From an uncultured Alistipes sp. (lineage in GTDB: Bacteria; Bacteroidota; Bacteroidia; Bacteroidales; Rikenellaceae), in contig CASDSD010000041.1 of NCBI GenBank assembly GCA_949283205.1, positions 44,544 through 108,543 on the forward strand: a stretch of 64,000 bases of DNA. The letters run 5' to 3'. Positions within the stretch are counted from its first letter, which is position 1. Each line of letters begins with the position of its first letter. The position numbers were made by a program, and so were the translations under genes. Below, piece after piece: positions 44,644 through 57,593 of this stretch. The notes under the pieces were generated by a model. That model did not search any database. It was not told the origin of the DNA and saw only the letters and a list, made by a program, of their open reading frames with translations.

Positions 44644-45993
44644 TCAGTCGTTTATGGCGGCATCGCGCATGACGGGCTCGCCGCCCCACACGCGCTGCGA
44701 GGTCCACGGTTCGGCCGGAGACGACCAGAAGGGATCGTCTGCGGGCAGCCCGAGCGGCAGGAAGACAAACGTGCAGAGATATGCGCTGCCCGTCGAGACG
44801 TAGCTCTCGGCAACCTGCGGCTGGTGGCCGCAGAAGCCCAGCGTGAGCCACCCCTCGCTGTCGAAGGTCTCGGGGACGGTCTGGCGGCGTATCACGGCCG
44901 TCAGGGCCGAGCGTACGGCCGCAGGCGCAAGGTCCTCGGGCAGCAGCCCCAGCAGCGCCGCCTGCGCCAGGGCGTGGAACGCCCCGTAACGGTAGCCGCT
45001 CGAACGGCCCAGCATCGGATAGCTCCCCTCGGGCGAGATGAGCATCTCCTGCTGCGCCGCGAAACGCGACAGGCGCCGCGCCACCTTGTCGTACAACGCC
45101 CCGCACGCGGCATATGCCTCCGACTCGGCGGCATGGGCCCGCATGACGGCCGTCACGTCGAGCAGCATGGGCTGTATCACGTAGCTGTTGTAGTAGTCGA
45201 GGTGGAACGACGGCCCGTCGCCGTACCAGCCGTCGCCCTTGTACCACTCCATGTGACGGTCCAGAGCATACTCCACGGGCGCCATCTCGCACTCGCCCGA
45301 GAGTTCGAGCAACGCCGCCTCGATCATCGCCGAGAAGAGCAGCCAGTTGCTCTCATAGGGTTTTATGCGGCGCGAGCGGCGCAGTTCGTCGATTATACGC
45401 TGCCGTGTCGTCGTATCCAGGCGCGGCCATACGGCATCCCCCGATCGCAGCAGTCCCTCGGCGAAAAAGGCAGCATCCACAAGCGGCTGCGAGCCGGGGC
45501 CATCGAACGGCATGTAGTCGGGCGAGGCGGGATCCACGGCATTTGTGATGGCCCGTACCGCCAGGTCGATCATCTCGGCGCGCAGGCGCCCTTCGGCCGT
45601 ATCGTCGGGGCCCAGGGCCAGCCACGGGGCGATGCCGTCGAACGAACGTCCCAGCGCCTCGAGATGCGTCACGTCGGCACGCTTGCCCTCGTTCGTACCG
45701 TCATTCACCTCGACGGGCATGTTCTCGCGCAGCGTACCCCGCGCAAGGTTCTCATAGACGGGACGTACGATGCGCACCATCGTCTCGACCCAATAGTCGC
45801 GGTCGGAACCCCGCGACCTGCCGCGACGCACTGCGGCCTCCGACGCGTCCTCCGGCCCGGTCTCCGAAACCGTCGTCTCCGCTCCGCCCACGGCCGGAGC
45901 CTGCAAAAGTTCTCTGCCGACGGCCGTCCCCACCGACAGCAACGCCGCAACGACGGCCGCGGCCGCCACTACAAAAAAGATACGATATTTCAT
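44644..45993 (-). CDS. DUF2264-family putative glycoside hydrolase (GH154-like)
   Basis: 449 aa with an N-terminal signal sequence/anchor (residues about 4-24). The remainder matches DUF2264: YWVETMVRIVRPVYENLARGTL, THLEALGRSFDGIAPWLAL, PYESNWLLFSAMIEAALLEL and YGDGPSFHLDYYNSYVIQPMLLD, an (alpha/alpha)-toroid with acidic and aromatic residues as in glycosidases. I recall that part of this family is classed as GH154 with beta-glucuronidase activity; that is from memory and not proven here. It points away from the SusC/D operon and is probably part of the same utilisation locus. Confidence 0.78.
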   Translation of the reverse strand: MKYRIFFVVAAAAVVAALLSVGTAVGRELLQAPAVGGAETTVSETGPEDASEAAVRRGRSRGSDRDYWVETMVRIVRPVYENLARGTLRENMPVEVNDGTNEGKRADVTHLEALGRSFDGIAPWLALGPDDTAEGRLRAEMIDLAVRAITNAVDPASPDYMPFDGPGSQPLVDAAFFAEGLLRSGDAVWPRLDTTTRQRIIDELRRSRRIKPYESNWLLFSAMIEAALLELSGECEMAPVEYALDRHMEWYKGDGWYGDGPSFHLDYYNSYVIQPMLLDVTAVMRAHAAESEAYAACGALYDKVARRLSRFAAQQEMLISPEGSYPMLGRSSGYRYGAFHALAQAALLGLLPEDLAPAAVRSALTAVIRRQTVPETFDSEGWLTLGFCGHQPQVAESYVSTGSAYLCTFVFLPLGLPADDPFWSSPAEPWTSQRVWGGEPVMRDAAIND

Positions 45994-46113
45994 AACCGAC
46001 AGGTTTTTCGTTGTCGCACTTCGAGAAGAGGGTCCCTCGGAAGAAGCACAGTACAACAACAGGTAATACCATATTCAGGCATTGCGCGCTTCAGACAGGA
46101 TCCCCGTCCCATA

Positions 46114-46143
46114 CAAAATTACGAATAAATTCCGTATCGGCAA
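46114..46143 (-). promoter_or_regulatory. Promoter for the DUF2264 gene
   Basis: On the minus strand TAATTTTG (46121-46114) lies 19 nt downstream of a TTG (46143-46141). The predicted leader is about 115 nt. Confidence 0.55.
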
Positions 46144-46431
46144 CTACGACATCCAGTTACCCCCGCAGCACGGTTCGGCTTATATTTTGCAAGGAGCCAG
46201 AGCCTAATATACAACACACTGATTTACAGGTGTAAATATCGGATCGGGGAACTGTTCACATTAAAAAATGGATCAAATGTGGTATTTTTCTCCAAATATT
46301 TCCTTATATTTGTAAAACGAGGGAACCTGTAAAACTACACACCAAAACCTAAACAATACTTGTAACCAAACCTAAAGTATCCGGAGCCTGGCTCCGGAGC
46401 AAACCTATTTCTAACCTTAAAACTTTTTCAC
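46144..46431 (+). promoter_or_regulatory. Upstream region of the susC operon, with a -7 box at 46305-46312
   Basis: The gap between the divergent DUF2264 and susC genes is A/T-rich and holds no gene. TATATTTG at 46305-46312 fits the -7 consensus and predicts a leader of about 110 nt. The -33 region has no TTTG, as is common where a regulator is needed. No regulator gene (hybrid two-component, SusR-like or ECF sigma/anti-sigma) is adjacent. Confidence 0.5.
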
Positions 46432-49400
46432 ATGGACCTGAAACGAACTTTCGAATCGTTGCACCGTATGGTCGCCACCGCTCGAAATGCGATGGTTATC
46501 ATGTTGCTGGCGGGGGGGGGAATTTCCGCCGCCCAGGCGCAAAACACCGTGAAGGGTAATGTCGTTGACCCGAACGGCTCACCTCTGGTCGGAGCCACAG
46601 TAATTCTGGCCGAGGACAACACCAAGGGAACCTTCACCGACGCGGACGGAAACTTTGAACTCAAAGTTGCCGCAGGGAACACTCTCCAAATCTCATCTAT
46701 CGGATACAAGACCGCCACTGTCAAGATCACAACGCAGACAAATATCAAGGTTGTCCTCGAGGAGGACCTCAACCAGCTGGAGGATGTCGTAGTCATCGGT
46801 TACGGTACCGCCCGCAAGGGAGACCTCACAGGCTCGATATCGAGTGTCAAGGGAGACAACCTCGTACAACGATCGACACAACAGATCTCGACGGCACTGC
46901 AGGGACAGATCGCAGGCCTGCAGGTGACACGTTCGTCGGGCGGCCCGGGCGATTCGGGTACGATCCGCATCCGCGGTGTCACCACGATGTCGACCAACGA
47001 CCCGCTCATCATCGTTGACGGCGTGCCCACCTCGAACCTCAACGACGTGCTCGCTTCCGACGTGGAGACCATGACCGTGCTCAAGGATGCCGCCTCGGCC
47101 GCAATCTACGGTTCGCGTGCCGCCGCCGGCGTTATCCTCATCACCACCAAGCGCGCCAAGACAAACGAGTTCTCGCTCGACTACAACTACGAGTTCTCGC
47201 TCGACACTCCCACGACGCGACCCACCAACGGCGACGCCATCGACTGGCTCAACATACAGAACGAAATCAAGTGGAACGACGGCGCCTCGGATCCCTACTC
47301 GATGTATTCGCAGGACTACATCAACTCATACATGGACAACAACGCCATCGATCCCTACCACTATGCAAATACCGACTGGGTAGACCTGATGCTCAAGAAG
47401 ACGGCCAGCCACCAGCAGCATACGCTCAGCGTATCGGGCGGCACCGAGAAACTGCGCACCAAGTTCACCTTCAACTATCAGGACGGCGAGGGATACTACG
47501 AGAACCGCGGTTACCAGCGTTACGCCGGCCGTGTGAACAATGACTACAAGATCACCGACTGGATGCGCTTCAACCTCGACCTCGACTTCTCGACCTCGGA
47601 AAGCACGTCTCCGCAGCTCAGCAACGCCATCTACTGGGCATACCTGATGGCCCCGATATATGCACCCTACTGGGAGAACGGACAGTATGCCGACGTCAAG
47701 GACGGCGCCAACGGTCTGGCAGGACTCAAGGAGGGCGGCAAATCGATCACCAACTATTACAAGTTCGGCGGCAAGGCACAGCTCGACATCACGCCCGTCA
47801 AGGGCCTTACGCTTACGGCCGTAATCGCACCGCGCTTCAGCATGACAAAGGGCAAGACGTTCAAGAAGGCCGTGAACGTCTACTATGAGGACGGCCGCAG
47901 CGTGCTCATGCAGTCGCTCAAGACCACCGACCTGTCGGAGTCACGCAACGACAGCAACCAGATGACATACCAGTTCTATGCCAACTACGGCAACAAGTGG
48001 GGCGACCACTCGTTCAGCGCCATGGTCGGATACGAGGGTTACAAATACGAGTGGGAGAACCTGGGCGCCTCGCGTACCAACTACCTGCTCGACCGCTATC
48101 CCTACCTGAACCTCGGCCCCGAGGACTACCAGTACAACTCGGGCAGCGCCGGACATAACGCCTACCAGTCGGTATTCGGCCGCCTGATGTACTCGTACCG
48201 CAACAAATACATGATCCAGGCCAACATACGTACCGACGGTTCGTCACGCTTCCACAAGGACTGCCGCTGGGGTACATTCCCCTCGGTATCGGCAGCATGG
48301 GTGGCATCCGAGGAGCCCTGGTTCAAGAACAACGTCGTAGAATATCTGAAGGTCCGCGGTTCGATCGGACAGCTCGGAAACGAGCGTATCGGTTCGGAGT
48401 TCCCGTATATGGCCGCCATATCGTTCGGCAACAGCTACATGTATGACAAGAGTACGCAGACCATCAGCGCCGTACAGAATGCCGCACAGGTGTATTACGC
48501 ATTCCAGGACATCACCTGGGAGACCACCACGACATACGGCGTAGGTGTCGACATGTCGTTCCTCAAGAGCCGCCTGCGCCTGACGGCCGACTACTACTAC
48601 AAGAAGACCGAAGACATGCTGCTCACGCTCGGATTCCCCTCGTACGCGGGATTCTCGGCGCCCTCGCAGAATGCCGGCGACATGTATACCAAGGGTTGGG
48701 ACCTCGAGATCGGATGGTCGGACTCGATAGGCGACGACTTCCACTACAGCATCTCGGCAAACCTCTCGGACTACCGCTCGCGCATGGGATACCTCGGCGA
48801 CCGCCGCACCATCTCGGGCAACTACATCACCGAGGAGGGCTCGTACTACAACGAGTGGTACATGTATCTCACCGACGGTCTCTTCCTCACCGAGGATGAC
48901 CTCTATGACGACCAGGGCAACAAGTACCCCACCCTGACCGCCAACGACAAGGCCGGTAACATCAAGTATGTGGATGTCGACGACAGCGGCACCATCAACG
49001 CCGACGACAAGGTGCCTCTGGGCAACTCGCAGCCCGAGTATCTCTATGGCGGTAACATCTCGATGGCATGGAAGGGTCTCGACTTCAACCTCTCGTTCCA
49101 GGGCGTGGGATACCGGAAGGTGCTCTTCAACACCAACTGGATACAGCCTCTCAAGGAGCAGTGGGGCGCCGTGCCGACGCTGCTGCTGGGCAACTACTGG
49201 AGCCAGCACAACACTCCCGAGCAGAATGCCAAGGCCAAGTACCCGCGTCTGACCTACACCAACACCACCAACACCTATACCGGTTCGGACTACTGGCTCT
49301 TCAACGGCGCCTACTTCCGCGTGAAGAACATCACGCTCGGATATACGCTGCCGTCGGATCTTATCAAGCACATCTTCATGAAGTCGCTGCGTTTCTATGT

Positions 49401-49518
49401 CAGCGTCACCGACCTGCCCGCAATCAGCAACTATCCCAAGGGATGGGATCCCGAGGTGGGATGGGGATCGCACTTCATCTCGACTTCATTCGTTTTCGGT
49501 GTTAATGTGAAATTCTAA
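46432..49518 (+). CDS. SusC/RagA-family TonB-dependent outer-membrane transporter
   Basis: 1028 aa. Imports oligosaccharides across the outer membrane using TonB energy. A signal peptide (residues about 1-36, ending AAQAQ) is followed by a carboxypeptidase-regulatory-like domain (KGNVVDPNGSPLVGATVIL, about 38-115), the TonB-box/plug (DVVVIGYGTARKGDLTGSISSV; VTRSSGGPGDSGTIRIRG) and a 22-strand-type barrel ending VFGVNVKF. No secretin-like N-terminal extension is present, so sigma-factor signalling is not expected. A run of nine G residues (46512-46520) encodes AGGG in the signal peptide. First gene of the PUL, 14 nt before susD. Confidence 0.96.
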   Translation: MDLKRTFESLHRMVATARNAMVIMLLAGGGISAAQAQNTVKGNVVDPNGSPLVGATVILAEDNTKGTFTDADGNFELKVAAGNTLQISSIGYKTATVKITTQTNIKVVLEEDLNQLEDVVVIGYGTARKGDLTGSISSVKGDNLVQRSTQQISTALQGQIAGLQVTRSSGGPGDSGTIRIRGVTTMSTNDPLIIVDGVPTSNLNDVLASDVETMTVLKDAASAAIYGSRAAAGVILITTKRAKTNEFSLDYNYEFSLDTPTTRPTNGDAIDWLNIQNEIKWNDGASDPYSMYSQDYINSYMDNNAIDPYHYANTDWVDLMLKKTASHQQHTLSVSGGTEKLRTKFTFNYQDGEGYYENRGYQRYAGRVNNDYKITDWMRFNLDLDFSTSESTSPQLSNAIYWAYLMAPIYAPYWENGQYADVKDGANGLAGLKEGGKSITNYYKFGGKAQLDITPVKGLTLTAVIAPRFSMTKGKTFKKAVNVYYEDGRSVLMQSLKTTDLSESRNDSNQMTYQFYANYGNKWGDHSFSAMVGYEGYKYEWENLGASRTNYLLDRYPYLNLGPEDYQYNSGSAGHNAYQSVFGRLMYSYRNKYMIQANIRTDGSSRFHKDCRWGTFPSVSAAWVASEEPWFKNNVVEYLKVRGSIGQLGNERIGSEFPYMAAISFGNSYMYDKSTQTISAVQNAAQVYYAFQDITWETTTTYGVGVDMSFLKSRLRLTADYYYKKTEDMLLTLGFPSYAGFSAPSQNAGDMYTKGWDLEIGWSDSIGDDFHYSISANLSDYRSRMGYLGDRRTISGNYITEEGSYYNEWYMYLTDGLFLTEDDLYDDQGNKYPTLTANDKAGNIKYVDVDDSGTINADDKVPLGNSQPEYLYGGNISMAWKGLDFNLSFQGVGYRKVLFNTNWIQPLKEQWGAVPTLLLGNYWSQHNTPEQNAKAKYPRLTYTNTTNTYTGSDYWLFNGAYFRVKNITLGYTLPSDLIKHIFMKSLRFYVSVTDLPAISNYPKGWDPEVGWGSHFISTSFVFGVNVKF
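46512..46520 (+). repeat. G9 homopolymer within the SusC signal-peptide coding sequence
   Basis: Nine consecutive G residues span codons GCG GGG GGG GGA near residue 27-30. Slippage by one base would shift the frame and abolish SusC export. Homopolymeric G or C runs of this length in coding starts are known contingency loci in other bacteria. Confidence 0.9.
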
Positions 49519-49532
49519 AGCGTAATAACCGT

Positions 49533-51326
49533 ATGAAAAAGATATTATTGGCAACATGCATAGCATCGGCGGCAGTGCTTACGTCATGCGTCGATCTTGA
49601 TTTGTCTCCGCTTTCAGAGGGATCGAGCGAAACGTGGTACTCCTCGCAGTCGGAGATCGAGATGTCGTTGAACGACTTCTACCGTACGGACTTCTTCCCC
49701 ATAATCGACAAGTCGTGGGGCGACGACGTAGCGTGGCGTAACAACACCCAGTCGGTACAGAACGGAACCATGACGGCCGAGGACGGCGGCGTGGCAACCC
49801 GCTGGCAGAACTACTACAAGGGCATCGCCCGCGCGCTGCGTCTGCTCGGCAAGATGGACAACGCCCGCGCCATGGGCATACCCGAGGCCACGATCCTGCA
49901 ATACGAGGGCGAGGCTTACTTCTACATGGGATACGCATACGGCATGCTGGCCTTCTTCTGGGGCGACGCCATCCTCGACAAGACGGGCATGACCCTCGAC
50001 GAGGCATATCAGGCCGTGCGCTCACCCAAGGCCGACGTGCTGGAGTTCGCATACCAGTGCTTCGACGAGGCGGCAAAACGCCTCCCCACGACCTATTCGG
50101 GCATTCAGCGCGCCACCAAGGGCGCGGCATACGCCTTCAAGGCCCGCGCGGCGCTCTGGAACGGCGACTACGACGTGGCGGCAAAAGCGGCAAAGGACTG
50201 CATGGACCTGAATGTATACAAGCTGCACGACAACTACCAGGATCTCTTCACGGCATCGTGGTCTGACGAGTGGATCTTCTTCTTCCGCGGTGACGTAACC
50301 CTCAAGAAATACTACTTCGCAGCGGCCGACGTAAACAACATCGTACCGCGTCTTGTCGGCGGCTGGGGCGGTGTCTGCGCACCCTCGTACGAGCTTATAT
50401 GCGCTTACCCCTGCATCGACGGCAAGCCTATCGACGAGTCGCCCCTCTACAACCCGAAGGATCCCTTCGAGAACCGCGACCCGCGTCTGGCCATGACGGT
50501 CGTTCCCTTCGCCACGGCCTACACCAAGAGCGTTTTGGACGGCACCTACAAACCCGAAGATTACGGATGGCTGGGCTATGAGCACTCGCCCGACCCGACC
50601 CGTACCGAGGTGATAAATCTCGCGACGGGCGATCCGATCAGCAACACCGACTCGAAGGCACGTGCCGAGCACGCCGCATACAACGGCTTCCTGTTCAAGA
50701 AGTATGTCGACGAGTCGTGGCTCGAGAACGGACACAACGGCGCCGCCACGACGTATCCCTACATGCGATACGGCGACGTGCTGCTGATGTACGCCGAGGC
50801 CATGAACGAGCTGGGCCAGTGCGACAACGACGTCCTCGACCTTACGATCAACGCGCTGCGTGAACGCGCATACCGCGGCACGGGCATCAACTACCCCGTA
50901 GCGACGAAATCGACGCAGGAGGCCATGCGCACAATGATACGCACCGAGCGTTTCATCGAGATGGCATTCGAGGGATGGCGCTATCCCGACCTGCTGCGCT
51001 GGCGTCTGGCCGAGGTTATCTTCAACCGCCCCACCTACTACCTCAAGCGCGCATGGTCGGGCTCGGCATCATGGGACGGCAACGTGGATAACGTCAGCGA
51101 CGACTACAAGGTGCTCATACAGAACTGGAAGGACGGCAACTACCCGATCGGCGGCACGCCGCAGATCGACGAGAACGGAATGGCCGACCTGCAATACATG
51201 GTCGATGCCGGCTACATCGTCATAGCCGCCGAACGCAAGTTCGACAAGACGCGCGACTACCTGTGGCCAGTACCTGCCGACGACCGTCTCATAAACGAGA
51301 ATCTGGACCAGAACCCCAACTGGTAA
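49533..51326 (+). CDS. SusD/RagB-family surface glycan-binding lipoprotein
   Basis: 597 aa. The lipobox LTSC at about residues 16-19 (MKKILLATCIASAAVLTSCV) marks lipid anchoring. The helical SusD fold follows: EGEAYFYMGYAYGMLAFFWGDAIL and the TPR-like FEYAYQCFDEAAKRL-type helices (here EFAYQCFDEAAKRLP). The C-terminal RAYRGTGINYP / MIRTERFIEMAFEGWRYPDLLRW block is diagnostic. It caps SusC and captures the glycan. It directly follows susC. Confidence 0.96.
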   Translation: MKKILLATCIASAAVLTSCVDLDLSPLSEGSSETWYSSQSEIEMSLNDFYRTDFFPIIDKSWGDDVAWRNNTQSVQNGTMTAEDGGVATRWQNYYKGIARALRLLGKMDNARAMGIPEATILQYEGEAYFYMGYAYGMLAFFWGDAILDKTGMTLDEAYQAVRSPKADVLEFAYQCFDEAAKRLPTTYSGIQRATKGAAYAFKARAALWNGDYDVAAKAAKDCMDLNVYKLHDNYQDLFTASWSDEWIFFFRGDVTLKKYYFAAADVNNIVPRLVGGWGGVCAPSYELICAYPCIDGKPIDESPLYNPKDPFENRDPRLAMTVVPFATAYTKSVLDGTYKPEDYGWLGYEHSPDPTRTEVINLATGDPISNTDSKARAEHAAYNGFLFKKYVDESWLENGHNGAATTYPYMRYGDVLLMYAEAMNELGQCDNDVLDLTINALRERAYRGTGINYPVATKSTQEAMRTMIRTERFIEMAFEGWRYPDLLRWRLAEVIFNRPTYYLKRAWSGSASWDGNVDNVSDDYKVLIQNWKDGNYPIGGTPQIDENGMADLQYMVDAGYIVIAAERKFDKTRDYLWPVPADDRLINENLDQNPNW

Positions 51327-51347
51327 CGATATCCGACTACCGAAGTG

Positions 51348-51370
51348 AAAGCCCGACCCGTGTCGGGCTT
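51348..51370 (+). terminator. Hairpin after susD
   Basis: AAGCCCGAC (51349-51357) and GTCGGGCTT (51362-51370) pair perfectly with loop CCGT, 22 nt past the susD stop. There is no T tail. It may partly terminate transcription so that SusC/D are made in excess of the downstream proteins. The remaining 200 nt before the next gene show nothing else. Confidence 0.55.
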
Positions 51371-51582
51371 CACCGGTATCGGCGGCAGCGCTATCTCCGC
51401 CGTTCGAATGCCGCGGGAGACGACATACGCCGTCGTGACGCAGGGCCGGCACGACATCATGTGCGGAATATCGGTCGCAAATGGCGGCAACTCACGGATG
51501 CGATGCGGAAACAGGCTGCCTGCAGCTGAAAATGTGCGGAAAAATATGTAATTTTACAGCAAAAGACTAAATAACGAAAAAC

Positions 51583-54048
51583 ATGAAGCCTTACAAACTC
51601 TTGTTTCCCGTTCTGGCCGCGGCGGCCGTAGCATGCGGCGGCGGGGAACGGCCTTCGGCCATTGACGCCACGGGGTATCCGTGCTACAGCGGCATATACC
51701 CCCATCTGGCATACTACAACTCGCAGGGTGAGTGCGGTACGGGCGCCGTGGTGCCGTGGGCCGGTTCGCTGTGGGTCGTGACATACTCGCCCCACGAGCC
51801 ATACGGGTCGGATGACAAGCTCTATCAGATCACTCCCGACATGACGCAGATCGTGCGTCCGGAGAGTATCGGCGGCACCCCGGCAAACCGTATGATCCAC
51901 ACGCCGAGCCAGCAGCTCTTCATCGGGCCCTATGCCATCGACGCCGAGGGCAAGGTGCGCGTAATCCCCTACGACCGCGTTCCGGGACGCCCGACGGGCA
52001 ACGCATACCACCTGACCGACCCCGAGAACCGCATACTGCTCGCCACCATGGAGGCGGGATTCTACGACATCGACGTCCACACGCTCGAGGCCAAGACCCT
52101 CTTCAAGGACGGCAACCAGATGCGCAAGGAGGGCGCCAAGGGGCGTTTGAGTCCCCTGCTGCCGGGATACCACGGCAAGGGATTCTATTCGAGCCAGGGC
52201 GTGGCCGTCTACTCGAACAACGGCGAGGAGGGCGAGCTGGCGCAACGGCAGTTCGACATACCCTCGGGATCGCTCTCGGAGTGGGACGGCAAGGAGTGGA
52301 AAGTGATACGCCGCAACCAGTTCACCGAGGTGACGGGACCCGGCGGCATCGAGGGCAACGCCTCTGTCGACGACCCCATCTGGTCCGTAGGCTGGGACTA
52401 CAAGTCGCTCATCCTGGCATGCCGCGACACGGCCGCCGGCTGGACATACTACCGTCTGCCCAAGGCGAGCTTCGCCTATGACGGCGCACACGGATGGAAT
52501 ACCGAGTGGCCCCGCATACGCAACGTCGGCACAAAGGAGAATCCCGACATGCTGATGACCATGCACGGCATGTTCTGGCGCTTCCCGCAGACCTTCACCT
52601 CGCAGAATACGGCCGGTATCGCCCCCCGCGGCGCATACCTCAAGGTCATAGGCGACTTCACGGAGTGGAACGGCCGTCTGGTCTTCGGCTGCGACGACTC
52701 GGCACAGAGCGAGTTCCTCAACAAGCGCCGCCAGAAGGGCAGCATCGGAGGCCCCGGACAGTCGAACTCGAACCTTTGGTTCGGTGACCTCTCCACGCCC
52801 GACAACGTAGGCCCCACGACCGCCGCAGGATCGCTCTGGCTCAAGGAGGAGGTAGAGGCCGGCAAGGCTTCGGATCCCTTCCTCTTCACGGGCTGGGACA
52901 ACCGCTGCGCATGGATCTCGAACCATTCGGACAAGGATGCCACCATAACCTTCGAGGTGGACAAGAAGGGTGACGGCACATGGACCACGCTGCGCACCGA
53001 GCCGGTGGCCGCAGGCGAGTCGAAATTCATCCCCTTCGAGCCGCAGGACGAGGGAATATGGATACGCGCCACGAGCAGCGAGTCGATACGCGCCGACCTG
53101 ACCTTCGTGCTGGCCGAGGCCGAGAGCCGCACCACCGAGCCCGACGCCATCTTCGACGGCATCGTATCAGTCAAGGGCAAGGCCGACTCGCAGGGTCTCA
53201 TGTACGGACTGCCCGACAACCGCCGCGCGCTGGGCCTGCTCGCCTCGACGGCCGAGGGCGAGCAATACTACGAACTCGACGGGGCGATGCATCTCATGCC
53301 CTGCCAGGATGCCGAGATGAGCGAATACATAGCCGAGAAGTTCGCCATACCCCACGACGTGGTGGATGTGGATGCCGGCTCGATCCTCATCGTCGATACC
53401 AAGCAGCGCCGCTGGCGTCTGCCCCTCGGCAACGAGGCATACAACGACAAGATCGCACAGGCGCAGCTGCGTCTCTGCCGCGAGGTGGCCACCGAGCGTG
53501 ACCTCTTCTCGTGCCACGGTACCTTCTACGAGCTGCCGGCGGAGAATGCCGACGGCTTTGCCAAGATACGCCCCATCGCATCGCACAACTTCGCCATCAA
53601 CGACTACGCTTCGTACCGGGGTATGATGATGTTCACGGGCATCGACCACGCCAAGGCCAGACAGAACCCGCATGTGGTCTTCTCGGAGGACGGCAAGGCG
53701 GCCGTCTGGGCAGGCGTCATAGACGACCTGTGGAAGATGGGCAAGCCGACGGGACACGGCGGTCCGTGGGTCGAGACCCAGGTCAAGGCGGGCGAGGCTT
53801 CGGATCCCTTCCTCATCGGGTTCTACGACAAGCGCACCCTCGCGCTCTCGCACACCGATTCGGGCAACGTCGTCTTCACCGTCGAGGTAGACCCGACGGG
53901 CGACGGCGCATGGTTCTGCTACGACACCTTCGAGGTGCCGGCGGGCCAGACCTTCGAACACAGCTTCCCGCAGTCGTTCCAGGCCCGGTGGATACGCATC
54001 ACGGCCGACCGCGACACCAAGGCTACAGCCTGGTTTGAATACAAATAG
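51583..54048 (+). CDS. Unrecognised PUL lipoprotein, beta-propeller-like with a duplicated module
   Basis: 821 aa. The N-terminus MKPYKLLFPVLAAAAVACGGG looks like a lipoprotein signal with Cys18. The body is beta- and Trp/Gly-rich with propeller-like blades (GSLWVVTYSPHEPYGSDDKLYQI; NRILLATMEAGFYDIDV). Two similar modules of about 95 residues are present: residues about 417-515 (WLKEEVEAGKASDPFLFTGWDNR) and 727-821 (WVETQVKAGEASDPFLIGFYDKR). Both share GDGxW and the ending IRAT/IRIT. I do not recognise a family. The position after SusD suggests a surface glycan-binding protein or an enzyme. Confidence 0.75.
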   Translation: MKPYKLLFPVLAAAAVACGGGERPSAIDATGYPCYSGIYPHLAYYNSQGECGTGAVVPWAGSLWVVTYSPHEPYGSDDKLYQITPDMTQIVRPESIGGTPANRMIHTPSQQLFIGPYAIDAEGKVRVIPYDRVPGRPTGNAYHLTDPENRILLATMEAGFYDIDVHTLEAKTLFKDGNQMRKEGAKGRLSPLLPGYHGKGFYSSQGVAVYSNNGEEGELAQRQFDIPSGSLSEWDGKEWKVIRRNQFTEVTGPGGIEGNASVDDPIWSVGWDYKSLILACRDTAAGWTYYRLPKASFAYDGAHGWNTEWPRIRNVGTKENPDMLMTMHGMFWRFPQTFTSQNTAGIAPRGAYLKVIGDFTEWNGRLVFGCDDSAQSEFLNKRRQKGSIGGPGQSNSNLWFGDLSTPDNVGPTTAAGSLWLKEEVEAGKASDPFLFTGWDNRCAWISNHSDKDATITFEVDKKGDGTWTTLRTEPVAAGESKFIPFEPQDEGIWIRATSSESIRADLTFVLAEAESRTTEPDAIFDGIVSVKGKADSQGLMYGLPDNRRALGLLASTAEGEQYYELDGAMHLMPCQDAEMSEYIAEKFAIPHDVVDVDAGSILIVDTKQRRWRLPLGNEAYNDKIAQAQLRLCREVATERDLFSCHGTFYELPAENADGFAKIRPIASHNFAINDYASYRGMMMFTGIDHAKARQNPHVVFSEDGKAAVWAGVIDDLWKMGKPTGHGGPWVETQVKAGEASDPFLIGFYDKRTLALSHTDSGNVVFTVEVDPTGDGAWFCYDTFEVPAGQTFEHSFPQSFQARWIRITADRDTKATAWFEYK

Positions 54049-54126
54049 GCGTACGCCGGCGGCCGCCGCCCCGTTCGCACGGGGTGTGCTGCCGTCGGCG
54101 CTGGCGCGCCGCAAAACATACGCATT

Positions 54127-55998
54127 ATGAACAGATTATCGATTTATGCGCTCCTTGTCTCGCTCCTTGTATCCTGCGCTCCGGCCAACGATACGCCGGG
54201 CGTACTGGTCGAGGCCGAGAACTTCGCCGCCAAGGGCGGCTGGAGCGTTGACCAGCAGTTCACCTTCGAGATGGGCTCGCCCTATCTCATCGCCCACGGC
54301 ATGGGCATCCCCGTTGCCGACGCCTCGACAGAGGTCACGCTGCCCGCAGCGGGAGAGTACCATGTATATGTGCGCACATACAACTGGACATCGCCCTGGT
54401 CGGACAAGAGCGGCCCGGGAGCCTTCCGCATAAGCGTCGGCGACACGCAGCTGGAGACCACGCTCGGCGCGGAGGGCAAGGCATGGATGTGGCAGTACGC
54501 CGGTGCCGCCACCCTGCCCGAGGGTAATGTCAACATATCACTGCACGACCTGACCGGCTTCGACGGCCGTTGCGACGCCATCTGGCTCACGCCCGACAAG
54601 AGTGTCGTCCCGCCCGACTCGGGCGAGGCGCTGGCCGAGTTCCGCGACAAGATCAACCCCCGCAAGATCCGAAAGGTGGAGTATGACTTCGTCGTCGTGG
54701 GCGGCGGCGTGGCAGGCATGTGCGCCTCGGTGGCGGCGGCACGCCAGGGCGTGAAGGTCGCCCTCATCAACGACCGTCCCATCTGGGGCGGCTGCAACAG
54801 TTCCGAGACCCGCGTACACCTCGGCGGCCATATCGAGATGGAGCCCTACACCAATCTGGGCAACCTGATCAAGGAGTTCGGCCCCGTGCGCGGCGGAAAC
54901 GCTCAGCCGGCGGAGTTCTACGAGGACGACAAGAAACGCGCCTTCCTCGAGGCCGAGGCCGAGAACCTCGATCTCTATCCTTCGTACCGTGTCGAGAAGG
55001 TAGACTGCCGTAACGGACACATACGCGCCGTCTATGCCACCCACATCGAGACGGGGGAGACGGTGGAGTTCCGCGCCCCGATCTTCTCGGACTGCACGGG
55101 TGACGGCACCGTAGGTTATCTCGCCGGCGCCGACTACTCGATGGGACGCGAGGGACGCTCGGAGTACAACGAGCCCTCGGCGCCCGAACAGGGCGACAGC
55201 CTCACCATGGGAGCCTCGGTACAGTGGTACTCGGTCGAGAACGACGCTCCGGCAACCTTCCCCGTATTCGAGTACGGGCTCAACTTCAACGACGAGAGCT
55301 GCGAGCGTGTCACCATGGGCGAATGGACCTGGGAGACGGGAATGAACCGCGACCAGTGCGACGAATTCGAGCGCATCCGCGACTACGGGCTCATGGTGGT
55401 CTACTCGAACTGGAGCTACCTGAAGAACCGTCTCGAGGATAACGACTCGTACGACAACCGCTCGCTCGGATGGGTGGCATACATCGCCGGCAAGCGCGAG
55501 TCGCGCCGTCTGCTGGGCGACCATGTCCTCACGGAGAACGACCTCGTGAACGAGGTGGCATATCCCGACGCATCCTTCACCACCACCTGGAGCATCGACC
55601 TGCACTATCCCGACCCCAAGAATACGGAGCACTTCCCCGGACAGGAGTTCAAGTCGATATGCACGCACGGGGCGGTGAACCCCTACGCGGTACCCTATCG
55701 CTGCCTCTACTCGCGCAACATCGACAACCTCTTCATGGCCGGGCGCAACATCAGCGTCACCCACATCGGCCTGGGCACCGTACGCGTCATGCGCACCACG
55801 GGCATGATGGGAGAGGTCGTAGGTATGGCCGCAGGCCTTTGCACCGAGCACAAGGCCCTGCCGCGAGACATATACAACGACCATCTCGAGGAGCTCAAGG
55901 CCCTCATGTCGAAGGGTATGGGCAAGAGCGGTCTCAAGAACAACCAGCTCTACAACCTCGGAGGCAACTGGCCCACCTACCGCAAACCCAAGAATTAG
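54127..55998 (+). CDS. Lipoprotein FAD-dependent oxidoreductase with carbohydrate-binding-like N-terminal module
   Basis: 623 aa. The lipobox VSC at residues about 15-17 (LLVSLLVSCAPAND) predicts an anchored, exported protein. Residues about 25-160 form a jelly-roll-like module (VLVEAENFAAKGGW... VYVRTYNWTSPWSDKSGPGAF) as in carbohydrate-binding modules. The rest is an FAD_oxidored-type enzyme (PF12831-like): the dinucleotide motif DFVVVGGGVAGMCASVAAARQG, WGGCNSSETRVHLGGH, SDCTGDGTVGYLAGADYSMGREG and the C-terminal FAD loop NLFMAGRNISVTHIGLGTVRVMRTTG. It may oxidise a sugar hydroxyl. Such an enzyme in a PUL outside the cytosol is unusual; the substrate is unknown. Confidence 0.85.
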   Translation: MNRLSIYALLVSLLVSCAPANDTPGVLVEAENFAAKGGWSVDQQFTFEMGSPYLIAHGMGIPVADASTEVTLPAAGEYHVYVRTYNWTSPWSDKSGPGAFRISVGDTQLETTLGAEGKAWMWQYAGAATLPEGNVNISLHDLTGFDGRCDAIWLTPDKSVVPPDSGEALAEFRDKINPRKIRKVEYDFVVVGGGVAGMCASVAAARQGVKVALINDRPIWGGCNSSETRVHLGGHIEMEPYTNLGNLIKEFGPVRGGNAQPAEFYEDDKKRAFLEAEAENLDLYPSYRVEKVDCRNGHIRAVYATHIETGETVEFRAPIFSDCTGDGTVGYLAGADYSMGREGRSEYNEPSAPEQGDSLTMGASVQWYSVENDAPATFPVFEYGLNFNDESCERVTMGEWTWETGMNRDQCDEFERIRDYGLMVVYSNWSYLKNRLEDNDSYDNRSLGWVAYIAGKRESRRLLGDHVLTENDLVNEVAYPDASFTTTWSIDLHYPDPKNTEHFPGQEFKSICTHGAVNPYAVPYRCLYSRNIDNLFMAGRNISVTHIGLGTVRVMRTTGMMGEVVGMAAGLCTEHKALPRDIYNDHLEELKALMSKGMGKSGLKNNQLYNLGGNWPTYRKPKN

Positions 55999-56024
55999 CA
56001 CTCCGCACGCACGGAGCACACACC

Positions 56025-56059
56025 GCTTGCCGGCTCCAGGGTCGGCAAGCGTATTTTTT
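56025..56059 (+). terminator. Intrinsic terminator after the FAD oxidoreductase gene
   Basis: GCTTGCCGGC and GTCGGCAAGC (10 bp with one G-T) enclose TCCAGG and are followed by GTATTTTTT. It lies between the oxidoreductase and the esterase; the ATG of the latter is only 17 nt beyond. Confidence 0.8.
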
Positions 56060-56075
56060 CAAACCACCACACCCC

Positions 56076-57593
56076 ATGCCTCACACATCAGCATTACGCA
56101 GGGCGATAGTGACACTGCTGCTCGCCGCCCTCACCGCCACGGTGCATGCCGCACCGCCGCACCGCACCACCATCCTGGCCCTGGGCGACTCGATCACGCA
56201 GGGCGGCGGGAATTTCGAGAGCTATACGGCACCCCTCTGGAGCATGCTCTACGGCGCCGGCTACGCCTTTGACTTCATCGGGCCCAACGCCTACACATGC
56301 CGCACGGGCAGCGTCGCCAACTGCGGCTACGGAGGCCGCACGGCCGAATACCTCGACTCGAAGATCGACAGCCTCTACGCGCTCTACCCGGCCGAGGTGG
56401 TGCTGTTGCACGCCGGCCACAACCACTTCGCCGGGGAACGCCCCGTCGAGGGAATAGTCGCCGCACAGCGCTCGATAATAGGCAAGATCCTGGCGCGCAA
56501 CCCCCGGGCGAAGATCCTCGTGGCGCAGGTGATCCCTGCGGGCAAGCTGCCGAAATATTCCTACATACCGGAGCTGAACGACCGCCTGGCCGAGATGGTG
56601 CGCGACATCGGCAACGACAACGTCACGCTGGTGAACGTCGCCGACGGCTTCGACTGGCGGCGCCATACCATCGACGACAAGGTACACCCCAACCATGCGG
56701 GCGCCGAGCACATCGCGGCACAATGGTTCAAGGCGCTGCAGCAGGTGCTGCCGCCGCCGGCCGAGGAGTACCGCCCCGACATCGAGTGCTACAAACGCCT
56801 CGGGGACGGCACGCGGCTCAACCTCCACATATTCCGTCCCGCCGGAGCGGCACCCCGCGGCGGACGTCCCGCCATACTCTACCTCTTCGGCGGAGGGTGG
56901 CACTCGGGCTCGCCCCTGCAGTTCTACCGCGAATGCGCCGCATACGCCGAGGCGGGGATCGTAGCCATCACGGCCGAATACCGTATACACATGGTTCACG
57001 GCACCTCGCCCACGGAGAGTGTCGAGGATGTACGCGACGCCATGGCATGGGTGCGCAAGAATGCGGACCGCCTGGGCATAGACCCCGACCGCATAGCTGC
57101 TGCGGGCAGCTCCGCAGGCGGGCACCTCGCCGCAGCCCTCGCCACGCTGCCCGGCATACCCGAGCGGCCCGACCTGCTGCTGTTGTACTACCCCGTTGTC
57201 GACACCTCGGACCGCGGGGCGTCCTTCGGCGGCGCGGAGCGCGCCCTCGCACTCTCGCCCATGCAGCATGTCGAAGGCAAGCTGCCGCCGGCACTCTTCC
57301 TCGTGGGGGACAACGACGCGATAGTATCCGTCGAGTGTGCGCAGGCGTTCCGCGACCGCGTGCGCAGCCATGGCGGAGAATGCGAGCTGCACGTATTCCC
57401 GGGAGGCGTCCATCCGTTGTTCAACTACCGCCTCACGCCCGACAGGATGTATTACGAAATACAGCTCCTCACGGTGGATTTCCTGCGGCGCCACGGCTTT
57501 CTCACGCGCCGCAGCGCCAACAGCATGGGGCATGACGCCGAGAGCGCCATCGACACCATCGACGCGGACGACGCCACGGAAACGGAGCGTTAA
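56076..57593 (+). CDS. Secreted two-domain esterase (SGNH hydrolase plus alpha/beta hydrolase)
   Basis: 505 aa. Signal peptide (residues about 1-26, TATVHAAPP). Domain 1 (about 30-225) is an SGNH hydrolase: block I GDSITQGG with the serine, the block III position LLHAGHNHF, and the DDKVHPNHAG histidine/aspartate block. Domain 2 (about 245-490) is an alpha/beta hydrolase of the carboxylesterase type: GGGWHSGS oxyanion loop, GSSAGG nucleophile, GDNDAIV acid and GGVHPLF histidine. Two esterase modules suggest removal of acyl groups from a decorated polysaccharide. Last PUL gene, separated from the oxidoreductase by a terminator. Confidence 0.88.
   Translation: MPHTSALRRAIVTLLLAALTATVHAAPPHRTTILALGDSITQGGGNFESYTAPLWSMLYGAGYAFDFIGPNAYTCRTGSVANCGYGGRTAEYLDSKIDSLYALYPAEVVLLHAGHNHFAGERPVEGIVAAQRSIIGKILARNPRAKILVAQVIPAGKLPKYSYIPELNDRLAEMVRDIGNDNVTLVNVADGFDWRRHTIDDKVHPNHAGAEHIAAQWFKALQQVLPPPAEEYRPDIECYKRLGDGTRLNLHIFRPAGAAPRGGRPAILYLFGGGWHSGSPLQFYRECAAYAEAGIVAITAEYRIHMVHGTSPTESVEDVRDAMAWVRKNADRLGIDPDRIAAAGSSAGGHLAAALATLPGIPERPDLLLLYYPVVDTSDRGASFGGAERALALSPMQHVEGKLPPALFLVGDNDAIVSVECAQAFRDRVRSHGGECELHVFPGGVHPLFNYRLTPDRMYYEIQLLTVDFLRRHGFLTRRSANSMGHDAESAIDTIDADDATETER

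Follow-up and report, generated by a model that had tools for sequence, protein, structure and literature searches.

Gene content of the locus

We analyzed a stretch of 64,000 nucleotides (below, the window, always meant at its full length) from the genome of an uncultured Alistipes sp., a genome of 2.39 Mb in 50 contigs. In our numbering the window is G000:C41:44544-108543, where G000 is this genome and C41 is contig CASDSD010000041.1. Its six-gene locus encodes a DUF2264 protein, a SusC/SusD pair, a lipoprotein of 821 amino acids (aa) here called P821, a flavin adenine dinucleotide (FAD)-dependent oxidoreductase, and an esterase. Based on sequence comparisons, we tentatively read it as a glycan- or glycoside-utilization locus with the functional core SusC-SusD-P821-FAD, in which the FAD enzyme would be an extracytosolic dehydrogenase and P821 a probable enzyme; we put the probability of this reading at about 0.45. 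The genes are as follows.

44644 to 45993, minus strand: DUF2264 protein, 449 aa, ATG at 45993, signal-like N terminus by eye (PF10022, E = 2e-114)
46432 to 49518, plus strand: SusC-type TonB-dependent transporter, 1028 aa (TIGR04056, 938 bits)
49533 to 51326, plus strand: SusD-type lipoprotein, 597 aa (PF07980, E = 6e-42)
51583 to 54048, plus strand: P821, mainly-beta lipoprotein, 821 aa, with unit 1 at residues 36 to 509 (51688 to 53109) and a partial unit 2 at residues 564 to 821 (53272 to 54045)
54127 to 55998, plus strand: FAD-dependent oxidoreductase, 623 aa, lipobox-like start (PF12831, E = 4e-67)
56076 to 57593, plus strand: SGNH plus alpha/beta-hydrolase (BD-FAE) esterase, 505 aa, signal-like N terminus by eye (PF13472, PF20434/PF07859 [Abhydrolase_3])

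All six genes named in the first-pass annotation of this DNA are present at these positions with the expected family matches (list of open reading frames [ORFs], Pfam, and NCBIfam). By ORF coordinates, the plus-strand genes are separated by 14 (SusC-SusD), 256 (SusD-P821), 78 (P821-FAD), and 77 (FAD-esterase) bases, and the DUF2264 gene is transcribed divergently from the other five. The adjacency of susC and susD is the arrangement by which a polysaccharide utilization locus is recognized. As in the Sus-type loci of Bacteroidota, the pair is accompanied by enzymes with export-like N termini; judged by eye, the starts of DUF2264, SusD, P821, the FAD enzyme, and the esterase are all export- or lipoprotein-like. 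Unlike Sus-type loci, the window's locus contains no clear glycosidase, no regulator gene was recognized adjoining it within the window, and P821 and a flavoenzyme are frequent partners of the transporter genes.

A recurring core with variable partners

Conservation was judged from P821 loci found by a profile scan of named genomes. The scan returned at least 550 loci, the best 80 of which were kept for all counts out of 80, their genes being annotated by matches to reference proteins. These counts include near-copies (six ruminant genomes, L020 to L025) and shortened contigs; one locus, L016, in which an overlapping frame displaced the P821 ORF, was left out of the neighbor counts. SusD and SusC genes are present in 59 and 58 of the 80 loci, respectively, an FAD enzyme with the N-terminal module described below (FAD+N) in 28, and an FAD enzyme without a recognized module in 6. 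SusD lies immediately upstream of P821 in 39 of the 75 loci in which a gene precedes P821, and FAD+N immediately downstream in 19 of the 74 in which one follows it. Sigma genes and FecR genes, each in 26/80, are a further likeness to Sus-type loci.

Loci with the SusC-SusD-P821-FAD core are found in different Bacteroidales families and also outside that order. Among 395 genomes sampled evenly from the phylum (cutoffs of E ≤ 1e-30 for P821 and E ≤ 1e-60 for the FAD enzyme), P821 occurs in 5 genomes, the FAD enzyme in 12, and both in 4 (hypergeometric probability, 2e-6, or 6e-5 without the source genome). Among the matches listed, the nearest named relatives of P821 are in Alistipes metagenome genomes. 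P821 is present in 5 of 101 relatives and, within the genus, only in the source genome and in G050.

It had been proposed at the outset that five families of this locus would be conserved jointly. Part of that expectation survives, as SusC, SusD, P821, and the FAD enzyme recur together in relatives. The joint set as a whole does not, as DUF2264 occurs in 2/80 P821 loci, the SGNH plus alpha/beta hydrolase in 1/80, and SGNH alone in 1/80. Among the loci examined, the full set of six genes was seen in the window only. The locus nearest to it, L138 (genome G447), contains sigma, FecR, SusC, SusD, P821, FAD, an SGNH plus alpha/beta esterase that is 51% identical to the window's, and a gene of glycoside hydrolase (GH) family 88/105 (PF07470, E = 2e-58). 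An Alistipes relative (L017) has SusC, SusD, P821, FAD, and the esterase on a contig that stops just before SusC, so that DUF2264 is not assessable there.

It could be argued that this is an ordinary small utilization locus in which the six genes have no common pathway and their combination is a local accident. The uniqueness of the full set would agree with this, as would the gain or loss of SusC/SusD, DUF2264, and the esterase between close Alistipes relatives. We consider such an accident improbable, given the wide recurrence of the core and its repetition in L138 together with an esterase and a GH88/105 gene.

Three side observations concern P821 loci. In G050, a close Alistipes relative (L012/L018), P821 has one in-frame TAG near the N terminus, and other relatives have intact copies; the gene is either decayed or affected by an assembly error. 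A contig titled Thalassovita (L069, PBYL01000482) carries P821, SusC, FecR, and sigma genes and is probably a misbinned contig of Bacteroidota. Finally, 16 P821 loci (L033:3663-5006 and 15 others) encode a family of about 410 to 460 aa, oriented away from SusC. Neither of the two members scanned had a Pfam match; by position, the family is possibly an unrecognized regulator.

Possible enzyme-like conservation of P821

P821 has no above-cutoff family in Pfam or NCBIfam and no sequence relative in the PDB, and the same three sources gave no sequence match to a known propeller family of polysaccharide lyases or glycosidases. An AlphaFold2 model from 57 aligned sequences is mainly beta, with a mean predicted local distance difference test score (pLDDT) of 90.6 and a predicted template modeling score of 0.90. 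The top 50 Foldseek rows for this model are largely beta-propellers with low template modeling scores (TM-scores), among them the arabinanase EndoMA1, GH43 enzymes, YncE, PorZ, and WD40 proteins. The initial description of the protein as propeller-like agrees with these results. Identification of P821 by fold was set aside, as Foldseek against the PDB and a viral library gave only generic propellers or low-scoring phage proteins.

The protein contains an internal duplication, in which residues 290 to 508 recur as residues 611 to 818 (28% identity, E = 8e-22). Five loci encode one-unit paralogues of 483 to 545 aa, which align to P821 from residues 29 to 36 through 500 to 509 and also from residues 564 to 602 through 821. 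Because of the repeat and because these paralogues align to both parts, P821 comprises, as judged from the alignments, a complete unit of about 475 residues and a portion of another.

The identity of P821 to 55 of 56 aligned relatives is 57 to 89%, with one at 37%, and the 57-row alignment has 107 invariant columns, in many of which the residue is R, E, D, H, K, or W. In 42 of the 48 loci where the SusC and SusD matches are long, the conservation of P821 exceeds that of SusD. In the 40 of these 48 where P821 is below 65% identity, the medians are 60% for P821, 43% for SusC, and 38% for SusD. We read this conservation as enzyme-like constraint, and we consider P821 to be probably a carbohydrate-active enzyme of an undescribed family and not a simple binder.

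The competing explanation is that P821 is a surface glycan-binding protein in the position of SusE/SusF, leaving the FAD protein, DUF2264, and the esterase as the only enzymes. Like SusE and SusF, P821 is a lipoprotein encoded after susD, and in the counts above it often follows SusD directly. Its start is lipobox-like (AVAC by eye), with the lipobox pattern in 37 of 84 copies, and its mainly-beta, modular fold with a duplicated C-terminal region would suit a binder, as would the many loci of Dyadobacter, Spirosoma, and Larkinella that consist only of a possible regulator, SusC, SusD, and P821. Surface glycan binders, however, diverge fast, and SusE/SusF-like proteins are poorly conserved between species, whereas P821 retains a median identity of 60% in distant loci where SusD drops to 38%. 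The many invariant polar and aromatic columns also argue against a binding role, which we regard as possible but doubtful.

The FAD enzyme and its module

The FAD enzyme consists of a CBM35-like module (approximately residues 23 to 165) and a PF12831 domain (residues 187 to 589), and the PF12831 match runs almost end to end. A match to Golvesin_C at residues 30 to 135 is below the Pfam cutoff. The dinucleotide-binding motif GGGVAG lies at residues 192 to 197. Its residues G192, G194, A196, and G197 are invariant in an alignment of 38 FAD+N proteins, the rows of which were selected for possessing the module. In these rows 30 residues are invariant in the N-terminal module and 65 in the flavin domain, including D491 and H493; because so many module residues are invariant, the module may be more than a binding tag. 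The model of the enzyme (pLDDT, 85) has a fold of the FrdA (fumarate reductase)/flavocytochrome c3/MnmG type, with low TM-scores, and its N-terminal part resembles the CBM35 of a GH26 mannanase, the rank 2 structural match being a GH26-CBM35 chain. This match is in line with the carbohydrate-binding-like module of the first-pass annotation. The same annotation placed the enzyme at the cell surface, which the family does not bear out: by pattern matches, just 5 of the 38 FAD+N proteins have lipobox-like starts, and 3 have starts like twin-arginine translocation signals.

The genome encodes two related proteins elsewhere. A second FAD+N (L134:16746-18671, contig G000:C3) is 57% and 49% identical to the window's enzyme over two pieces and is separated from a SusC/SusD pair by about 7 kb that contain other genes. 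On contig G000:C39, L137:3931-5934 is a PF12831 protein with a C-terminal Golvesin_C and without the N-terminal module.

Two known redox systems invite comparison. A pathway for 3-keto glycosides in gut Bacteroides, reportedly the subject of a 2024 study in Nature, is said to depend on nicotinamide adenine dinucleotide (NAD) and Gfo enzymes. It resembles the proposed system in redox-based glycan cleavage in gut Bacteroidota and differs from the window's FAD enzyme in oxidoreductase family and in cofactor. The second is GlycDH, a GMC enzyme, in contrast to the window's FAD protein, whose 12 Pfam matches up to an E value of 1 include no GMC oxidoreductase domain. Both would be flavoenzymes acting on glycosides, and in L026 a PF06439 gene (3-keto-disaccharide hydrolase) directly follows the FAD gene; such hydrolase genes occur in 4/80 P821 loci, whereas no 3-keto enzyme was recognized in the window's locus. 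According to the available part of PMC10628242, GlycDH is a flavin-dependent glycoside C3-dehydrogenase of Rhizobium/Agrobacterium that works with an eliminase, a hydratase, and a Gfo oxidoreductase. No title among the open-access literature matches listed concerned a SusC/SusD locus with a PF12831 enzyme or with a protein like P821; we make no claim of absence from print.

A candidate electron carrier near related FAD enzymes

Within two genes of 10 of the 38 FAD+N genes is a gene for an unrecognized protein of 333 to 390 aa, which we call FMNc for a putative carrier of flavin mononucleotide (FMN). Examples are L078:12406-13497, L088:12385-13479, and L142:3057-4229, with eight more. The FAD+N proteins linked to it are distributed over three parts of the tree, and one of them, L080, belongs to the clade of the window's enzyme; this pattern is compatible with repeated gain or with loss. 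FMNc is also present in five of six loci (L141 to L146) taken from FAD matches not beside P821. All 11 aligned FMNc proteins contain GAT, preceded in 10 by S or T (A in L142), and in 10 there is a D three residues earlier; two cysteines, a C-x4-C pair, are invariant. FMNc thereby displays the [ST]GA[ST]-like motif of ApbE substrates, and an ApbE gene adjoins FMNc and FAD in 3 of the 11 cases (L078, L088, and L142). Several FMNc N termini look signal-peptide-like by eye; those of L080 and L084, in the frames called, do not. Pfam FMN_bind gave a weak match in 2 of the 11 proteins (best E = 0.017), and the best PDB match of the FMNc profile, across the motif region, is 8p2b (E = 0.05), an FMN-binding domain of a multi-FMN protein. 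These two matches are no more than suggestive of a flavin carrier. We propose FMNc as a candidate new ApbE substrate. In its motif, and in the ApbE genes that neighbor it in three loci, it resembles known ApbE-flavinylated extracytosolic electron-transfer systems, in contrast to which it has no match to DUF2271 or DUF3570, stands in sugar loci, and was not found in the window's genome. Those systems are covered in the available parts of PMC8238504 and PMC11334425, the former describing ApbE as a flavin transferase that modifies [ST]GA[ST]-like motifs.

In the phylum sample, FMNc (E ≤ 1e-38) is present in 7 of 395 genomes, and in all 7 a member of the FAD family lies on the same contig within 2.4 kb. 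Five of the seven had supplied query rows; the two independent genomes alone give a probability of 3e-4. In G262, one of the seven, a further FMNc lies on a different contig for which no FAD match was listed, and an eighth genome (G208) has a marginal match (E = 9e-4) without FAD. This independent gene-neighborhood evidence offers indirect support for the idea of extracytosolic electron transfer by the FAD family. The first-pass annotation had suggested an oxidative step outside the cytosol. A redox step there is plausible from the export-like N termini and from FMNc and ApbE near the FAD enzymes of relatives, although the carrier itself was not found in this genome, where the two ApbE genes both lie outside the locus.

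The distribution of FMNc bears on two other views of the FAD protein. By analogy with GH4 and GH109 enzymes, in which NAD plays a transient redox role, the protein might cause no net sugar oxidation: oxidation, elimination, and re-reduction would follow one another in one active site, and an acceptor would be unneeded. FMNc was not found in the source genome or in G447, whose complete locus is the closest to the window's, and among 100 other relatives only G074, which has P821, gave a match; the Alistipes host, moreover, is presumably an anaerobe. Both points are consistent with redox-neutral catalysis. The three parts of the tree in which FMNc lies near members of the family point instead to net electron transfer at least there, and we think redox neutrality unlikely. 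Alternatively, the protein might act reductively and pass cell electrons to an oxidized extracytosolic substrate in anaerobic respiration. Among its fold neighbors are fumarate reductases, flavocytochrome c3, and a urocanate reductase. This direction seems very unlikely to us: the Pfam family is a different one (PF12831), SusC and SusD are frequent partners, and FMNc is present in Chitinophaga and Echinicola, which are aerobes. The available part of PMC8238504 describes the analogous flavinylated reductases of fumarate and urocanate.

A side observation concerns the neighborhood of FMNc: in genomes of two different families, a gene for a CstA-type transporter (PF02554) follows it (L143:11430-12878 and L145:10922-12364).

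DUF2264 as a probable uronate dehydratase

DUF2264 had been labeled a putative glycosidase, which now appears doubtful. The protein matches the PDB entries 9o4u, a beta-D-glucuronic acid dehydratase (E = 3e-102), and 8oi4 (E = 4e-109). Residues 63 to 444 align with the dehydratase BcGDH, with identity in 166 of 383 columns (43%). Nine of 10 mutagenized active-site residues of BcGDH are kept (the list in PMC12269599 is E74, R78, N176, N177, W178, F181, Y229, R285, Y289, and Y354); the exception is N176, which is serine in the window's protein. According to the available part of PMC12269599, BcGDH (Bacteroides caccae PUL25; 9o4u and 9nwf) is a member of GH154 that works as a beta-glucuronate dehydratase and creates a 4,5-unsaturated end for GH88, BT_3677 also shows dehydratase activity, the galactosidase and glucuronidase activities claimed earlier for two GH154 members are disputed, and reclassification of GH154 is proposed. 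On these findings and the residue mapping, we set the glycosidase assignment aside and consider DUF2264 a probable uronate dehydratase of the beta-D-glucuronate type, formerly GH154. Unlike in the BcGDH system, the GH88-like gene is outside the locus. It encodes L135 (G000:C20), which matches the GH88 structure 3wiw (E = 8e-101) and seven unsaturated glucuronyl hydrolase entries (E = 2e-45 or better) or sequences (down to E = 4e-44). A protein of 432 aa on contig C27 (L136), weakly matched to GH88, resembles GH76 in Pfam and was excluded from the GH88 tally.

GH88/105 genes also occur near P821 or FAD in L075, L138, L139, and L144, in L075 accompanied by heparinase II/III and alginate-lyase-like genes. 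Uronate-containing substrates are suggested by these neighbors, by the homology of DUF2264, and by the GH88-like protein of the genome.

Proposed pathway and its standing

We infer every reaction below, the uronate-containing substrate class, and the order of steps from gene content, homology, gene neighborhood, and motifs. SusC/SusD would carry the substrate across the outer membrane, and P821 would process the captured glycan as a carbohydrate-active enzyme. Outside the cytosol, the FAD enzyme would oxidize an alcohol group of the captured sugar by two electrons, perhaps at C3 by analogy with the known flavin and NAD systems, a position considered because of the 3-keto-disaccharide hydrolase gene directly after FAD in L026. 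In some relatives, the electrons might pass to FMNc, flavinylated by ApbE. Because FMNc was not found in the source genome, there would be another acceptor there, or the oxidation would be transient and redox neutral. DUF2264 would dehydrate a non-reducing-end uronate to its 4,5-unsaturated form. The GH88-like hydrolase, whose gene lies outside the locus, would then cleave this product, and acyl groups would be taken off by the esterase.

Several observations count against this reading. The absence of a detectable FMNc from the source genome and nearly all relatives has been described. FAD+N was not found in the stretch examined for 52/80 P821 loci, and therefore P821 needs no FAD enzyme as a neighbor. 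The Alistipes relatives L016 and L018 have DUF2264, P821, and FAD without SusC/SusD adjoining. Neither the PDB nor Pfam gives anything in favor of catalysis by P821, and SusD is the more conserved protein in 6 of the 48 loci compared (L017, L042, L049, L060, L089, and L090). With regard to uronates, the closest solved relative of DUF2264, 8oi4, was deposited as a beta-galactosidase, Pfam matches L135 to GH76 and GH88 about equally weakly, and, with three GH88/105 references, GH88/105 was found in 1/80 P821 loci, DUF2264 being similarly rare. GH29 (8/80), sulfatases (9/80), and GH95 (4/80) are commoner than GH88/105, because of which P821 loci probably serve several glycans.

A bolder version appears doubtful to us as a whole. 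It would comprise an undescribed oxidative system with SusC/SusD capture, a CBM35-like FAD dehydrogenase, a new flavinylated carrier, and P821 as a new cleaving family, the carrier having been lost or replaced in Alistipes. Models of glycan uptake in gut and soil Bacteroidota consist mainly of hydrolysis plus transport. If true, the presence in such loci of a recurring flavoenzyme that has its own electron carrier would extend these models by a redox branch with the potential to conserve energy. For biochemical work P821 is a clear candidate, with its many loci, its lack of any Pfam, NCBIfam, or PDB sequence match, and conservation exceeding that of its transporters in distant loci, and the DUF2264 result corrects a label that is probably wrong. 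Compared with the initial proposal, the conserved gene set has been lost and gene-neighborhood support for extracytosolic electron transfer, of an indirect kind, has been gained.

Transcription, the esterase, and the flanking genes

The motif TANNTTTG, which we take to be the Bacteroidota -7 element, is matched exactly 23 times in the window, compared with 7.7 expected. The transcription signals at the locus are as follows.

46114 to 46121, minus strand: TAATTTTG, candidate -7 element upstream of DUF2264, exact match to TANNTTTG
46305 to 46312, plus strand: TATATTTG, candidate -7 element of the susC operon, exact match to TANNTTTG
56024 to 56051, plus strand: terminator-like hairpin between the FAD and esterase genes, 12 pairs then TATTTTTT (-21.7 kcal/mol, z = -3.7)

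No further exact plus-strand copy of the -7 element lies to the right of 46312 in the window. Because copies precede susC and DUF2264, none follows further right, and the hairpin stands before the esterase gene, the operon is likely SusC-SusD-P821-FAD, with DUF2264 divergent. A window-wide terminator scan found 8 sites versus 9.5 in shuffled sequences, so that the case for this hairpin is its own strength alone. The esterase gene would then be transcribed only by read-through past the hairpin or from a promoter that our motif search did not reveal.

The GDS, GHN, and DKVHPN motifs and the G-x-S-x-G serine of the esterase are kept in L017 and L138. An acylated glycan had been put forward as the substrate; because the esterase gene follows a strong terminator-like hairpin and occurs only sporadically in relatives, an acylated substrate is weakly indicated.

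Insertion of the locus between lnt and ATP-synthase genes was considered and is not supported, as no atp gene was matched in the up to 1,500 bases examined on the other side of lnt. In the corresponding check, 49 of 61 genomes matched lnt and 30 loci were kept, including that of the source genome; folC adjoins lnt in 29 of the 29 lnt loci of other genomes examined, and one locus shows only about 250 bases on the side away from folC.

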